DNA of 12,779 bases, from positions 1-12,779 of the forward strand of contig DNJQ01000104.1 in NCBI GenBank assembly GCA_003497225.1, given 5' to 3'. Origin of the DNA: Bacillota bacterium. GTDB taxonomy: Bacteria > Bacillota_I > Bacilli_A > RFN20 > CAG-288. The notes beneath the pieces were generated by a model, which worked only from the letters and a program-made list of their open reading frames with translations, was not told where the DNA came from and did not search any database. Numbering within the stretch: position 1 is the first letter of the stretch; each line of letters begins with the position of its first letter. Below are positions 4,584 to 12,738 of this stretch, in pieces. The translations under genes were made by a program, and so were the position numbers.

Positions 4584-5492
4584 ATGAAAGAAATTGAACA
4601 CATTGATTTAAAGAATTTGAATGGTTATATAAAAAAGACCCCATTAAGTCATTATAAAGATAGTAATAACAACGATATATATGTAAAAGAAGAGTCTTTT
4701 AACCCTTCTGGTTCAATTAAAGATCGCGTGTTTTATTATGTTTTAAGCACACTAAAAAATGAAGGCAAGATAAAGCGAAACACTTTAGTAACTCTAGCAA
4801 GTAGCGGTAATGCCGCCATAAGTCTAGCTAAAATGGCACCGATATTTGATATTAATGTCGTTTTGTTTTTACCAAATAGCACAACAAACGAAAGACGAAA
4901 AATACTTAGTTTAACTAATGCTAAACTTTTATATATTGCTGGAAAAATGGAAGACTGCAGTAAAATAGCCCAAAATTATGCAGACGAAAATGAAGGAATA
5001 TATCTCGATCAATTTTCAAACGAATTATTCCTTTCTTCTCACCAAGATACATCAAAGGAAATATTTGATGATTTAGATGATATTGATTATGCGATTTTAA
5101 CTTCCGGAAGTGGAGTTACAATTAGTGCTTTAGGTCGAAGATTAAAAGAACATTATCCAAATCTTAAAATCATCGCCTATGAGCTTGAAGAAGCTAAATT
5201 TATCACGCAAAAAAAGTTCTTTCCTCATAAAATTGAAGGCATAGGTCCAAATTTTACACCCAAAAATCTTAACGCCTCTTTAATCGATAAGACTATTTCA
5301 TTACCACAAGAACATATCCTCTCTTATTGCCAAAAACTATATTCTTTAGGTTATAATTATGGTCCATCAACTGTTGGATGCTTTTTAGCAATCAAATCAC
5401 TTTCCCTTCAGAATAAGCATATATTGATTGTGAGCTATGATAATGCTGATAAATATCTAACTGCTCTAATCAATGAAAAAGAAGAAAACTGA
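4584..5492 (+). CDS. cysK: Cysteine synthase-family (O-acetylserine sulfhydrylase-like) PLP enzyme
   Basis: This 302-residue fold-type II PLP enzyme probably joins O-acetylserine and sulfide to give cysteine in the cytosol. The Schiff-base lysine is K46 in NPSGSIKDR (40-48). SSGN (73-76) is the substrate/PLP loop, TSGSG (173-177) stands where the phosphate-binding glycine loop is expected, and DQFSN (142-146) matches the family. Divergent points: SSGNAA instead of the usual TSGNTG, and YGPSTVG (259-265) where GxSSG is expected; the serine near the pyridine nitrogen is conserved only as ST. The length is normal. It overlaps the serine acetyltransferase gene by 20 bases, which supports a cysteine role over threonine synthase, cystathionine synthase or a diaminopropionate pathway. 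The general family is certain; exact substrate is moderately certain. Confidence 0.85.
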   Translation: MKEIEHIDLKNLNGYIKKTPLSHYKDSNNNDIYVKEESFNPSGSIKDRVFYYVLSTLKNEGKIKRNTLVTLASSGNAAISLAKMAPIFDINVVLFLPNSTTNERRKILSLTNAKLLYIAGKMEDCSKIAQNYADENEGIYLDQFSNELFLSSHQDTSKEIFDDLDDIDYAILTSGSGVTISALGRRLKEHYPNLKIIAYELEEAKFITQKKFFPHKIEGIGPNFTPKNLNASLIDKTISLPQEHILSYCQKLYSLGYNYGPSTVGCFLAIKSLSLQNKHILIVSYDNADKYLTALINEKEEN

Positions 5493-5979
5493 ATCATATT
5501 TTTCCTTTATAAAAAGACACGATAAAGCGGCGAGAAATAACCTACAAATCTTTCTAACCTATCCAGGATTTAAAGCGATAGTCTATTACCGCATCTCGCA
5601 CTTTTTCTTTCGCCATCATTTAAAATTATTAGCTGAAATGATTACTTTTCACGTCCGAAAGAAAACAGGGATTGAGATTCATCCAGCCGCAAAGATTGGA
5701 AGAAACCTATTTATTGATCACGGATTTGGCGTTATCATAGGTTCAGATAGTGTTATTGAAGACAATGTCGTTATTTATCACGGAGTGACTTTAGGTGCCA
5801 AGGGAACTGAAAGACTTGGTGAAAAAAGACATCCAACGATAAAAAGCGGCGCAATAATAGGGGCAGGAAGCATCATTTTAGGTGATGTAACTATTGGCGA
5901 AGGAGCAATAATAGGGGCTGGAAGTTTAATAACAAAAGATGTAAAAGCTCATACAACTTTTGTCCAAAAAAGGCGGTGA
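5473..5979 (+). CDS. cysE: Serine O-acetyltransferase, short EpsC-like form
   Basis: This 168-residue cytosolic enzyme makes O-acetylserine from serine and acetyl-CoA, feeding the cysteine synthase encoded just upstream. The short helical N-terminus has the family pattern YPGFKAIVYYRISHF (30-44), followed by the left-handed beta-helix of hexapeptide repeats. It contains IDHGFG (81-86, catalytic D82/H83), HGVTLGAKG (103-111) and RHPTI (119-123). The ATG at 5473 lies inside the cysK reading frame and has no clear RBS, so translation likely depends on coupling. The protein stops at TTFVQKRR, where relatives usually continue with a VGxPAKVI-like tail. Those last codons coincide with the A run and stem of a minus-strand terminator, so the end has probably been reshaped. 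Catalytic residues are intact; function is likely retained. Confidence 0.92.
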   Translation: MKKKKTESYFSFIKRHDKAARNNLQIFLTYPGFKAIVYYRISHFFFRHHLKLLAEMITFHVRKKTGIEIHPAAKIGRNLFIDHGFGVIIGSDSVIEDNVVIYHGVTLGAKGTERLGEKRHPTIKSGAIIGAGSIILGDVTIGEGAIIGAGSLITKDVKAHTTFVQKRR

Positions 5980-6444: not shown

Positions 6445-7263
6445 TTAGTTGAAAATTTCATTGATTCCACTGGCTATTACATCCGCTAATAAGGGTATTG
6501 TATAATCAATTTCATTAGTGGTTAAAAAAAGTTTCTGGTCTTCTCTATCTTCTAAGTTTTTAATTAGAAGTCTTTTTTCTTCCGTATTATTAGACATTTC
6601 ACTAATATAATCTTTAATTATTGAACTCATACTAACAACTGTTGCAACTCCAATACTAATAACTGGAACCTTTAAATAGTCTAATGATAAAATCTTTCGT
6701 GAATTTCCTATTCCTGCTCCTGGAACGATGCCTGAATCAGTAATCTGAATCACCTTATTTAAACGATTCAGTTTATGAGTCACTAATGAATCTATAGCGA
6801 TAACATAATCGATCTTCTCTTGTTCAATTATGGCTTTAGCTATGGCGGCTGATTCAATTCCTGTTGAAGCAAAAACTCCTGGTGATAAAGAATATAAATT
6901 TTTCTTTCTTCTTTCGTGAGTCGGAAGAATTCTACTAGAAACTTCCGGTCCTAAAGAATCTGGGGTATAATCTTTATTTCCTATTCCTAAAACCAAAGCT
7001 GATTTATTAGTTAATTTCCATTTGCGTATTAAAGATTTTAAACTTTTAATTAAGCATAATCTTAATCCATAATCATTTGAACAGGCCGTATTATCAAGTA
7101 ATATATAGCGCCCTTTAGGCTTTTTATAGATGTTATTTTCATCTAAGATATCAAGGTTTTCAACCTTTACGCCCTTAAAGTTATATCTATTAACTTTAAT
7201 CTTTTTATCATTACTCTCTTCCATCGCTTCACTAGCGATATCAAAAAAACTATAATCCTTCAT
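6445..7263 (-). CDS. gpr: Germination protease GPR (spore protease, short form)
   Basis: GPR degrades small acid-soluble spore proteins on germination, inside the spore core; it is made in the forespore as a zymogen and is an atypical aspartic protease. Diagnostic blocks are present: LVLGIGNKDYTPDSLGP (90-106) with D102, SLSPGVFASTGIES (125-138), VIAIDSL (154-160) with D158, ITDSGIVPGAGIGNSRK and PVISIGVATVV. D102 and D158 correspond to the two catalytic aspartates known from Bacillus GPR. The protein is 272 residues, against about 370 in Bacillus; shortening affects a mid-domain loop and the segment before the conserved C-terminal ADVIASGINEI. The N-terminus has only about seven residues before DIASEA, the counterpart of the TDLAVEA maturation site. 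An in-frame TAA nine bases upstream excludes a longer form. It overlaps the deacetylase gene by 14 bases, has no clear RBS, and is probably translationally coupled. Confidence 0.93.
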   Translation of the reverse strand: MKDYSFFDIASEAMEESNDKKIKVNRYNFKGVKVENLDILDENNIYKKPKGRYILLDNTACSNDYGLRLCLIKSLKSLIRKWKLTNKSALVLGIGNKDYTPDSLGPEVSSRILPTHERRKKNLYSLSPGVFASTGIESAAIAKAIIEQEKIDYVIAIDSLVTHKLNRLNKVIQITDSGIVPGAGIGNSRKILSLDYLKVPVISIGVATVVSMSSIIKDYISEMSNNTEEKRLLIKNLEDREDQKLFLTTNEIDYTIPLLADVIASGINEIFN

Positions 7264-7949: not shown

Positions 7950-7978
7950 TATTATCTTCAAAGATAGATTTTATATAC
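7950..7978 (-). promoter_or_regulatory. Candidate forespore (sigma-F/G-like) promoter of the deacetylase-gpr pair
   Basis: On the minus strand GTATA (7978-7974) and GATAATA (7956-7950) are separated by 17 bases. This is close to the Bacillus sigma-G pattern of a GHATR -35 and a CATNHTA -10 about 18 bases apart, with one mismatch in the -10. The implied leader is about 10 bases, as short as others in this window. An ordinary vegetative -10 (GATAAT) is an alternative reading, and co-transcription from the giant gene is not excluded. Confidence 0.3.
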
Positions 7979-10900
7979 TAACTAGGTCTATCGGGGTTAA
8001 CCGGTATGGTACCAGGATCAGTAATATCATAATGTTCAATGGCGTAAGCTAGATCTTCAAATACCAAATTATTGATATCACCCGAACAAACCTGATCTAA
8101 ATATAAAGTGTATACACCATCAAACAATGCATTATTCGGCGTATATGACTTAAATAAGGTGAAGGCTAATTGTGAATTGACATTCGCGCGTTTAGTGCGG
8201 TAATCGCTATAATATGTAGCTGAGATATCTTTAAGAAGCGCTAATGAATTCTCTTCTCCAGCTACATATCCTGCATCCGCTAAAGTCATAGTGCTAATAG
8301 TTTCTGAATAGGAACCCATGAGTTTAAGAGCCTTTACAATGCTAGCTTCATCAGTTGCTGAAGCAAGATCTAACATACCTTTAATTCCTCGAGCCTCGAC
8401 GATATTAAGTCTTAAATAATCACGACCATTATCATCAGGGGCAAAGAAGAAGTTCTCTAAGGTATTTAATATTGCGGTATCAGTTGTTACGCTCTTAAAT
8501 CCCTTGGTTAGATAGGATGCTACAATTTCTGAAGCGAAGAGCGATTTAACAGCTTTAACTCCCGTACCATCCTCTTTAATCATCATGGTCTTCATAACTA
8601 GGTCATAAGCTTGTTTACCAGTGATTTCAAGGTTATTTTTATCAAAGCTTGCGTTAACCATACTAGCTAAGTTCTTTAAGAATGAATTTAATATATTGCA
8701 TTCTTCACGTAAATCTTCTTCAGTATGAGCGTAGGGGAAGAAGAGTTTTCTAATTCTCGCGGCTTTAATATGATCATTTGCACCAGAATCAAGGTCACGA
8801 ACTAGATCAACTAATTCAGCACCGGTATTTCTTAAATAGGAATAAACGATATATTCTTTATTATCGCTAAGTAAATCCATCTTATCGATTGGACCTAAGA
8901 CGCGATAAAGGTCGAAAACATCTTCGTTAAATCCTGTCTCCGAACTATCGATATAATATCCATTTCCCGCCGAATCAACTTTATAAAGGTTATCTGCTAA
9001 TTCAAAGAAGCCCTCAAGTTCATGATTCCAGAACGCCATATCCTCTTCGGAAGTTGTTAAATGAACACGATAATTAATATCATAATATACTCTCGAATCT
9101 ACTGTTATAAGTGTTGTAATATTGAAAAGTTCGAAAGCTTGTTCAAAGAATGTTGGCAAAGCTTGGTGGAGAATCTTACTATCGTTAAAGCAAGATAAGA
9201 TGCTTCTAACTTGTGTTGGTGAAAGTGAGGACATGTTGTTAAGATTATTGATATCTATACCATTGACATTTCTTAAAAGTCTAATGATCTTAGAGTTTTC
9301 TTGCATGACTTTTGCTCCACTTGGTGAAGTAGTATCAACCCAATCAGTTATCGAAGTTATAACTGACTGCATGCTTGTTTTAGCACGAAGCTTTACTTGA
9401 TGTTTCTCTTCTGCCGTCATTTCTTCTTTTTCGACATTGTTAGTAATCATTTGATCTAACTTGATGTAATTAAATAAAGAAGAAATAATAGTTTCGTGTA
9501 AACTCAAACGTTCAAGAGGCTTATTGACTGTAAATGATTTCATACTAGCAACATCGTCTAGAACTTTTTGAAGTGTATTTAATTGAGCTTCAGTTAAATT
9601 GCTTATAGTATTAAACATCGTATCTAATTCGCCAGTTTTAAACTGATTATAAACATCAACGAGATAATTGATCTCGGATTTCTTCTCTTCTTTAGTCATC
9701 GTATAGAAGACGCTAGTATTGAGCGAACGTAAATCGATTGAGTTATCTTCATCTAAAACGATAGGAGCGATATTTTGAATAGCCTTTTCAAGCATATCTG
9801 GTAAAACTATTGATAATGTATTAGTTTCAACTAATGACTCTAAAATTATTCTTAAAGTATTAGCATCAACACTATCACCAGTAATATTATCTACACCAGT
9901 TGTTTGAATGACGCTAAGAAGATTAATCAAATTAGCGATTTCTCCTTTTTCAGTTACAATTACTTCTTCAGTATCAATCGTAATAGTTTTTTCCTGTTCA
10001 ACCCATTTCCAACCTTTATTTAATTCACCAGTTGAAGGATCACAAGATTGGAAATATGTAGGATCGATGGAATCTCCTAAAACTCCTTGGAAGGAATCGT
10101 TATTAAAAACCTTATCGAGCAAGTCGCCGAAATAATCGAAGTATAATCCAGTATCTTGTTGACGAACACCTAAAACATTGGTTTGAGAGAAGGCGGTCAA
10201 AATGGCGTTAACTCGAGTTAAATCGGAATTGAGCCAATCAATATTAGCTAAATCCGCTGAAGAACTAATCTTCTTTAAGCTATCGACGACACGAGCTAAA
10301 CACTCTCCTTCATTCTCCCAGTCTTTAACGACGTAGAAATCTAATGATACTCCGATATCTTGAATGATAGGTGAAACATTCTTATTAAATATTGAAGCTA
10401 AAGATGGGGCGAATACATCACTTTTTCCTAATGTTGTTAAAATGTCCTTAATTAGTTTTCCATCGATATTATCTAATGTAATATCTCCAGAAGTAAAGAA
10501 TGACATATTATTTTTTACAACTTGGAGTGAATTTACAATCTTATCTATTTCTCCATTTTTTGTTCCTTCAATATACCATTCGATTGAAGAAAGATTATTT
10601 GGAACAATAACTCCGACATCTTGCAATGCCTTTTGTTTAAGTATTCCCTCAATAAGGGCTTCGAAGTTACGATCTTTTTCTATTTCTGCACTTCCGTCAA
10701 TGCGGTGAGATGGATTAATAATAGAAGATTTATACATCTTTACTAGAATATCTCTAACTTTTTCTAAATCAAGTTTTTCCATAGCTTGTTGAACTGTCAA
10801 TGATGAATTAGATAAAGTATCAGAAATTTCTAAGGCATCGCTAGCTATATCAAGTATCGTTGTTAATTCATTTTTCATTTGAGTTGAATCATCAAAGGTG

Positions 10901-12738
10901 AAACTCAAATCATCAACACTTAAGCCGAATAACATATCGCTGGAAATATTGGAATCTTTGAGTGCCTTTTTGACTAATCCTGGGAAAGCAGCTAACATAA
11001 GTTTTGAATTAGAAGCGACACTAATAACATTCTTTAGTTCTTTAACATGTGTATTATTCTTAAAATCAATCTTATCTAAAGGAAGATTGGGGTTATTATA
11101 AATAAGAGGAACAATATCGATAATCGTGTTAAATTCATCGATTAAATTCATATCCTCACTGCTAAAGACATCGTGGATAGTTCTTTCATCGACATATTCA
11201 CCAACGGATGGAACGCTTGATAATAGTTTAGTGACTAATGATTCTAGATCAACTGAATCGATGAGGTTTAAATTAAGAAGTCCTAAAACATCTTTTTCCT
11301 CATCTCCACAAATCGCTTTTCTTATAAATTCAATCTTTTCATTATCTTTCAAGGCTTTATTTAAAAGTTCTTCAAAATTTATATTATTTAGTGACGTTAT
11401 ATTAAACGCCTTTAAAAGATTTGATAAACAAGTAGCTAAACATTTAAGTTCATGATCCCAATCAAGATCTTTAAGAAGTCCTGAATCGGTTGGGAAGATA
11501 TCTTGTCCTAAGGATTTATTAACTTCTTTTAAAACAGGGCTCATGATGAATGGAAGATTTTTATCAATCATCTCTATTGATGTAATTGAAGTTAAAGCAT
11601 CACAGTATTGATCCATATTAGCTAGATACACAGTGAAATTAATTTCACTTGGCGTAACACGGTTAAATAAACCTGCATCATAAATCTTTTCGTAGAATGC
11701 ACTAACAGCATTCATATCATTTTTCCAATCAATATCTTTGAAGTCTAATTCATTGATTACTTCTTTCATTGATGGATCATCTATGACATTTTGTCCCATA
11801 CTTATTAATCCCGGGATGATATTAATAATAAGTTTAGATTTTCCTAAAAGTTCTAATACTTGTTTAATCGTATCCTTTGCTAAAAGTTTCTGATAGTCAA
11901 TAACAGGATTTCCGCCATTAAAAGTTACGGCTGGTAAAACTGGTTTAACTACTGTTAATAAAGTTTCTAACTCATTAAGAAGTCCCATCTTAACTCCATT
12001 AACTTCAACCTCAACTACTTGGTTGACTATTCCATCTGAAACTGGAGATAAAACTTTTAATGTACTATATAGTGCTGAACTATTATAGGCATCAATTCCT
12101 TTTTTAATCGTATTATATGTATTATCATCTAAAACTTTCATTTCGTGAGCCGAATCGATATATTCAGGTCTTTCTGTTACTATTTTGGCCATTGAAGATA
12201 ATGGTGAAAATAACATAACCATACATAGTGCGCCATCTAATAAACCACATAGTGCACCAGCCCAACGAATCTTCTTTTTCTTGCGTAATTTCTTTGAAAT
12301 AAAGTGTTTAAAAATCAAATGATAAAATAGTGTTGCTAAAAGACTTCCGATTAATAAAGTCAATATCATTAAAACAAAGAATATCGCGCAACTAAGAAGT
12401 GAATGAGCTAAAGCCAAACAAGTTCCATAAAGATCACTTCCTGTTACTGGTGAAATCTTTCCAGAATTAACTAAAATATTTGCTAATGTTTCATCAAATG
12501 TTGTTAGCTTAACATCTAATATTTCCGCATCAACATGAAAGGTTGTAGCAAAATTTATTTTACAGATAGCATTAGTAATAGGTTGTGAACAGAAAATCAT
12601 AACAACAAAACATATGCTTCGGAATATAAGTTTGAAAGAAGTCTTCCAAATTCCCTTCCATAATCCGATTAGTGATGCTATAACTACTAGCGCTATCATG
12701 CCTACTAGTACTAAATTTGCTATAAGTGTAATATCCAT
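7978..12738 (-). CDS. Giant CvpA-like membrane protein with a repeat-built ectodomain
   Basis: I do not recognise this 1586-residue protein as a whole. The N-terminal 180 residues carry four hydrophobic helices (about 5-26, 36-58, 108-140, 160-180). The features GLWKGIWK at 25-32 and RWAGALCGLLDGAL at 158-171 fit the CvpA/colicin-V-production membrane family, which is normally only about 160-220 residues long. A basic cluster, KKLRKKKK (149-156), sits before the fourth helix. The remaining 1400 residues have no membrane span, no LPXTG, no lipobox and no enzyme motif I know. They are rich in L, I, D, N and S, predicted helical, and built from diverged repeats described separately. The chain ends in a short PGTIPVNPDRPS tail. 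By topology (even helix number, basic loop inside) the C-terminal mass may lie either side of the membrane; inside is possible if both termini face the cytosol. GAGGAA (12744-12749) supports the ATG at 12738. Confidence 0.85.
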   Translation of the reverse strand: MDITLIANLVLVGMIALVVIASLIGLWKGIWKTSFKLIFRSICFVVMIFCSQPITNAICKINFATTFHVDAEILDVKLTTFDETLANILVNSGKISPVTGSDLYGTCLALAHSLLSCAIFFVLMILTLLIGSLLATLFYHLIFKHFISKKLRKKKKIRWAGALCGLLDGALCMVMLFSPLSSMAKIVTERPEYIDSAHEMKVLDDNTYNTIKKGIDAYNSSALYSTLKVLSPVSDGIVNQVVEVEVNGVKMGLLNELETLLTVVKPVLPAVTFNGGNPVIDYQKLLAKDTIKQVLELLGKSKLIINIIPGLISMGQNVIDDPSMKEVINELDFKDIDWKNDMNAVSAFYEKIYDAGLFNRVTPSEINFTVYLANMDQYCDALTSITSIEMIDKNLPFIMSPVLKEVNKSLGQDIFPTDSGLLKDLDWDHELKCLATCLSNLLKAFNITSLNNINFEELLNKALKDNEKIEFIRKAICGDEEKDVLGLLNLNLIDSVDLESLVTKLLSSVPSVGEYVDERTIHDVFSSEDMNLIDEFNTIIDIVPLIYNNPNLPLDKIDFKNNTHVKELKNVISVASNSKLMLAAFPGLVKKALKDSNISSDMLFGLSVDDLSFTFDDSTQMKNELTTILDIASDALEISDTLSNSSLTVQQAMEKLDLEKVRDILVKMYKSSIINPSHRIDGSAEIEKDRNFEALIEGILKQKALQDVGVIVPNNLSSIEWYIEGTKNGEIDKIVNSLQVVKNNMSFFTSGDITLDNIDGKLIKDILTTLGKSDVFAPSLASIFNKNVSPIIQDIGVSLDFYVVKDWENEGECLARVVDSLKKISSSADLANIDWLNSDLTRVNAILTAFSQTNVLGVRQQDTGLYFDYFGDLLDKVFNNDSFQGVLGDSIDPTYFQSCDPSTGELNKGWKWVEQEKTITIDTEEVIVTEKGEIANLINLLSVIQTTGVDNITGDSVDANTLRIILESLVETNTLSIVLPDMLEKAIQNIAPIVLDEDNSIDLRSLNTSVFYTMTKEEKKSEINYLVDVYNQFKTGELDTMFNTISNLTEAQLNTLQKVLDDVASMKSFTVNKPLERLSLHETIISSLFNYIKLDQMITNNVEKEEMTAEEKHQVKLRAKTSMQSVITSITDWVDTTSPSGAKVMQENSKIIRLLRNVNGIDINNLNNMSSLSPTQVRSILSCFNDSKILHQALPTFFEQAFELFNITTLITVDSRVYYDINYRVHLTTSEEDMAFWNHELEGFFELADNLYKVDSAGNGYYIDSSETGFNEDVFDLYRVLGPIDKMDLLSDNKEYIVYSYLRNTGAELVDLVRDLDSGANDHIKAARIRKLFFPYAHTEEDLREECNILNSFLKNLASMVNASFDKNNLEITGKQAYDLVMKTMMIKEDGTGVKAVKSLFASEIVASYLTKGFKSVTTDTAILNTLENFFFAPDDNGRDYLRLNIVEARGIKGMLDLASATDEASIVKALKLMGSYSETISTMTLADAGYVAGEENSLALLKDISATYYSDYRTKRANVNSQLAFTLFKSYTPNNALFDGVYTLYLDQVCSGDINNLVFEDLAYAIEHYDITDPGTIPVNPDRPS
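9136..11886 (-). repeat. Diverged tandem protein repeats within the giant gene
   Basis: Two motifs recur. Motif A is a helix of the form L-x-x-I-L-x-x-L-x-x-S-x-L-x-x-x-x-P: IKQVLELLGKSKLIINIIPG (about residues 290-309), LKNVISVASNSKLMLAAFPG (566-585), IKDILTTLGKSDVFAP (761-776), LRIILESLVETNTLSIVLPD (960-979) and VRSILSCFNDSKILHQALP (1176-1194), with weaker copies near 387 and 655. Motif B is an aromatic/acidic helix start such as IDWKNDMNAV, LDWDHELKCL, KDWENEGECL and AFWNHELEGF, near 335, 423, 804 and 1235. The copies alternate with a period of roughly 90-125 residues. DNA identity between units is low, so this is old duplication rather than a recent DNA repeat. Confidence 0.6.

Follow-up and report, generated by a model that had tools for sequence, protein, structure and literature searches.

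The 12,779-nucleotide window analyzed here is an entire contig of a draft genome (882,665 bases, 61.75% complete), and it raises the question of what a membrane domain resembling CvpA does at the head of a protein of 1,586 amino acids. The gene for this protein, P0001, occupies positions 7978..12738 of the minus strand and encodes a CvpA-like anchor followed by a repeat tail. It starts with ATG and runs through 1,586 codons with no internal stop. The open reading frame was confirmed as real: the P0001 query found matches in 22 of the 23 genomes of the window's family, and a frame conserved to this extent is not a chance ORF. GC content is even along the contig (0.29-0.36), whose end lies 41 bases upstream of the gene, and neither an Rfam match nor a tRNA was detected within the window. 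Overlapping CysK-type and CysE-type genes lie on the plus strand at 4584-5979.

A preliminary description of this DNA, made before any database search, had proposed a CvpA-like N-terminus with four helices. Hydropathy analysis of P0001 located four membrane segments, at residues ~3-21, 33-51, 117-135 and 160-178, and none beyond residue ~186, in agreement with that description, which had also seen no membrane span in the ~1400 residues that follow. The CvpA-like domain, defined by Pfam, hydropathy and profile comparison, covers residues 1-186 (12181..12738, minus strand). The Pfam score is borderline: Colicin_V/CvpA (PF02674) aligned with residues 14-203 at E=3e-6 and 27.7 bits for a cut-off of 29.3, and P0001 scored 28.3 bits in the genome search, or 31.6 with the frame neighbours. 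Since a Pfam match to this family at E<=0.1 was obtained for just 5 of 22 aligned relatives, the evidence from single sequences is weak. Profiles were more informative: residues 1-200 of 43 sequences matched 12 short CvpA proteins from same-family genomes (174-263 aa) at 97.5% (E=5.1e-12, 165 columns), against 25.3% for the reversed control and 0.1% for three shuffles. On this comparison of sequences, we regard the N-terminus of P0001 as clearly CvpA-like. Short CvpA proteins and the giant protein occur together in other genomes of the family, and in its own genome, at the completeness given above, the giant is the sole Pfam CvpA match.

The nature of the tail was addressed by sequence and structure searches. 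Searches of Pfam, NCBIfam and PDB sequences returned nothing significant for residues ~190-1586 or for two larger relatives, and the family profile reached a best E of 0.5 against the PDB, which is not significant. The confident assignment to a characterized family that could have undone the preliminary description was thus not obtained in these libraries. Likewise, no catalytic family was found for P0001, the family profile or the larger relatives, and an enzyme was rejected. Two AlphaFold models were mostly helical (pLDDT 81.1 and 89.1; pTM 0.58 for the first), and Foldseek returned nothing significant for either of them, the second having also been compared with viral structures; a weak or missing match is not by itself a new fold. 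Eukaryotic intracellular solenoids (exportins, beta-catenin, nucleoporins) headed the insignificant lists, and a solenoid-like shape may be suggested for the tail.

Comparison of the tail with itself revealed its organization. The self-comparison gave 39 off-diagonal profile matches at >=70%. None appeared when the profile was reversed or in any of three shuffles of its columns, and the two controls with shuffled blocks yielded 3 and 1. Three super-repeats, all encoded like the rest of the tail on the minus strand, were delimited by repeat profile comparison as R2 (residues 574-768, 10435..11019), R3 (769-969, 9832..10434) and R4 (970-1182, 9193..9831), and they match one another pairwise at 95.0-97.6%, with reversed controls at <=2.0%. 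They are followed by a partial super-repeat R5 (residues 1183-1400, 8539..9192), whose first half matches R2-R4 at 48.9-77.2%, and by a C-terminal part that is helical in the structure model (residues 1401-1586, 7981..8538). According to self-comparison and model, the first tail part (residues 190-573, 11020..12171) has distant weak repeat similarity only, and R1 within it (385-573) does not resemble the other super-repeats convincingly (<=16.1%). The tail is therefore an array of tandem repeats of ~100/200 residues, mostly helical in the models, and this rules out the single large domain of 1,400 residues that had been assumed initially. Of 62 large membrane ORFs, among them some few from outside the giant family, 48 contained domains detected by an HMM built from R2-R4, 236 in total, compared with 2 domains in 1 ORF for reversed copies and 0 for shuffled ones. 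Among giants held out from the HMM, at least 3 repeat domains were found in 11/11 from the same order and at least 1 in 8/18 from other orders, the remaining 10/18 having no recognisable repeat. Longer proteins have more repeat domains (rho 0.85 for 40 proteins of the order, those used for training among them). In the tail, conserved positions return at intervals close to the repeat spacing, namely E535, E730, E933 and E1147, and S578, S773 and S1187, the Ser equivalent in R4 not being conserved. Such recurrence of conserved Glu and Ser gives the tail a structural look, unlike one active site.

On which side of the membrane would this array lie? In 43 sequences, P0001 and near-duplicates counted, the TM1-2 loop is net positive in 42 and the TM3-4 loop (residues 143-160, 12259..12312, minus strand), which we take as cytoplasmic, in 40, whereas the TM2-3 loop and the segment after TM4 are net positive in 0/43 each. 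By the positive-inside rule, these loop charges place the tail most likely outside the cytoplasm. The tails of the same sequences are acidic, with a mean of 236 D+E vs 106 K+R. The opposite arrangement, with an inverted anchor and the tail acting as a scaffold inside the cell, would suit the eukaryotic intracellular solenoids at the top of the insignificant Foldseek list. Several relatives (for example L036, L037, L039, L045, L046, L090 and L096-L098) also show a further segment whose hydropathy exceeds the threshold, at about the place of residue ~310; were this segment to span the membrane, the tail would lie on the opposite side. Both the loop charges and the strong acidity of the tail argue against an inverted anchor. 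A further argument comes from MarP, a mycobacterial acid-resistance protease whose transmembrane part is CvpA-like. Two reports place four TM helices at the N-terminus of MarP (Rv3671c) and its protease domain in the periplasm (PMC4992679, PMC3728290). We consider a cytoplasmic scaffold very improbable, and of the two locations left open initially, surface or cytoplasm, the first is retained and the second disfavoured.

We then asked how widely this architecture is distributed. A protein search returned 13 proteins including the query, all of 1,558-1,646 aa, and a second search with the alignment added one, P0014. Profile A1 matched all 23 family genomes (G010 by a C-terminal piece only), 126/245 genomes of the order and 89/395 of the class. 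The N-terminal profile A7 matched 149/245 order genomes, some via short CvpA-like frames of 250-306 aa only, and 125/296 class genomes, other families having frames as long as 6,056 aa. Giants, defined as open frames of >=700 aa, are present in at least 122/245 order genomes, with a median of 1,920 and a maximum of 3,921 aa among the matches listed. In a draw from the phylum, 55/225 genomes matched and all 55 belong to the same class, the share of the 225 outside that class not being given. The fusion of a CvpA-like domain to such a tail is shared by nearly the whole family and reaches further into the order and class, which answers the search for homologues suggested initially. The records of nine relatives, UBA7642 among them, are uncultured MAGs labelled Bacilli, Bacillales, Firmicutes or Clostridiales. 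In mycoplasma-like genomes (L138-L142), whose frames contain TGA, the CvpA-like proteins are short (343-419 aa), and the L138 gene lies, by eye, upstream of an apparent topoisomerase subunit gene; the weak matches that had made these genomes candidates for giants were these short proteins, read under code 4. In L035 (7343-11257, minus strand) and L040 (8004-11999, plus strand), antisense frames of 1,304 and 1,331 aa run across the giant gene and are most likely shadow ORFs. The family, its repeat and its spread did not turn up in the libraries and literature searched here, and judging by titles and the start of abstracts, the papers retrieved on the CvpA family and PF02674 describe no giant CvpA fusion. 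To this extent, the undescribed protein class put forward in the preliminary description is borne out.

A repetitive, length-variable tail predicted to lie outside the cytoplasm could belong to a sortase-independent adhesin, which would bind host mucus, plant fibre or cells and owe its variation in length to surface diversification. The named relatives fit such a role, as one genome comes from roe-deer omasum and one isolate name is of rumen type. However, no known adhesin domain was found, and conservation across nearly the whole family, with the same neighbours in most order loci, is more like a core envelope gene, so that an adhesin is possible and, in our judgment, unlikely.

These neighbours were surveyed in 56 loci, 41 of them from the window's order. 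A gene for an Rce1-like CPBP protease occurs in 37/56 loci and a TraX gene in 39/56, in both cases only among the 41 of the order, where the giant gene is usually divergent from them. Downstream of the giant, a UPF0029/YigZ-type gene was found in 33 and an Mrp-type gene in 24 of the 56 loci. None of these four genes is present in the window, and the conserved neighbours of the order name no function for the giant. The frequency of the CPBP and TraX genes could indicate protein quality control, the tail presenting clients to a CPBP-type protease; alternatively, the CvpA-like domain might move a solute, with the tail delivering the substrate, a role in line with a study of CvpA in EHEC that proposes deoxycholate export (PMC6705877). 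Both are improbable, as the window lacks the CPBP gene, other genomes of the family encode short CvpA proteins in addition to the giant, and the tail looks structural. In another family, giants adjoin an EPSP-synthase-family gene, MurA by our reading, and a Lyase_1 gene (L110, L111, L112). L110 and L112 carry copies of ~1,000 residues and of 3,000-4,000 residues in tandem.

In the window itself, a gene for a polysaccharide deacetylase (PF01522; 7250..7933) lies 44 bases downstream of the P0001 gene and in the same orientation; its best NCBIfam match is PdaB, below the cut-off. The deacetylase gene overlaps by 14 bases the gene of the germination protease GPR (6445..7263, minus strand; Pfam and NCBIfam). 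This arrangement would point to a sporulation protein, yet GPR was found in 27/245 order genomes and, within the family, in the window's own genome only, and it lacks a match in 97 of the 122 giant-bearing order genomes (among the matches listed). Sporulation as a general role was consequently rejected and is largely refuted, and we find it scarcely credible for P0001. The transpeptidase PF00905 is similarly restricted, with matches in 29/245 order genomes and none in 216, the window's own genome being again the only one in its family. Having GPR and transpeptidases that were seen in no other family genome, the window's organism appears to be a spore-former with a cell wall in a family that otherwise lacks one. 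Giants occur in 26/29 order genomes with transpeptidase vs 96/216 without (among the matches listed, genomes without a match being obtained by subtraction and the same 245 being assumed for the GPR, PF00905 and profile A7 searches), and their median lengths without and with transpeptidase, 2,092 vs 1,892, do not differ significantly (p=0.29). A simple rule by which giants make up for a lost wall was discarded on these numbers; the giant is neither tied to sporulation nor commoner in wall-less genomes. Sortase PF04203 was detected in 0/22 family genomes, including the window's own (62% complete), and the control detected it in 3 known genomes. Field et al. (PMC10868615) predict that RFN20-like orders combine walled with peptidoglycan-deficient families, that families of RFN20 have lost peptidoglycan and that sortases are missing there, from which reduced surface protein expression is deduced. 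If the order studied here is RFN20, as we presume, our counts for transpeptidase (29/245) and sortase (0/22) fit these predictions, and many host lineages of the giant seem to have lost the cell wall.

Taken together, the architecture, repeats, conservation and charge bias lead us to propose that P0001 is an envelope protein, anchored in the membrane with its repeats outside the cytoplasm, and serves as a scaffold or coat, a reading to which we give about an even chance. The deacetylase in the window and the EPSP-synthase-family gene beside giants in three loci point to the envelope. The CvpA-like four-helix domain would serve as membrane anchor and the chain would leave the cytoplasm after TM4, continuing as a long acidic series of repeats, each of ~100 residues, mostly helical and paired into ~200; the number of these units would set the protein size. 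On the outer face, the array may form a structural or docking scaffold, coat or spacer, binding neighbours or surface polymers via many equivalent sites with no catalysis, and its reach would depend on the repeat number. The large scaffold envisaged in the preliminary description is thus favoured in its extracytoplasmic form as a proposed function, and disfavoured in its cytoplasmic one. A bolder version, which we regard as quite unlikely, holds that the giants are an undescribed CvpA-anchored superfamily building a coat or exoskeleton in uncultured Bacilli; having originated in ancestors with walls and spores, a type that the window's organism resembles, it would have assumed part of the mechanical or barrier role of the wall after peptidoglycan and sortase were lost. 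If P0001 is an envelope scaffold or coat, wall-less Bacilli would display large surface proteins by a sortase-independent route, and the little understood CvpA family would gain an extracytoplasmic repeat array. With its built-in N-terminal anchor and its presence in many transpeptidase-free genomes, the giant is a concrete candidate for envelope material.

In principle, a CvpA anchor, an extracytoplasmic fusion and giant repeat surface proteins are each known elsewhere. From the insignificant Foldseek ranking, the general build of P0001 is perhaps similar to that of eukaryotic alpha-solenoids such as exportins, beta-catenin and nucleoporins. Ebh is a sortase-anchored giant surface protein made of helical repeats; P0001, predicted at the surface, is comparably long, repetitive and helical, but its anchor is N-terminal and polytopic and no sortase was found in the 22 family genomes. 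With MarP it shares four N-terminal TM helices followed by a domain that, for P0001 by the charge rule only, would be extracytoplasmic. The tail of MarP is a chymotrypsin-fold protease, whereas no trypsin-like protease domain matched after the TM helices of P0001 in Pfam, NCBIfam or PDB sequences and its tail is a repeat array; a 2008 survey lists Colicin_V among domains occurring with serine proteases. To CvpA itself (PF02674), P0001 is related by its N-terminal four-helix membrane domain, and it differs from the short CvpA proteins, of 174-263 aa, in extending this domain by a tail of ~1,400 residues.
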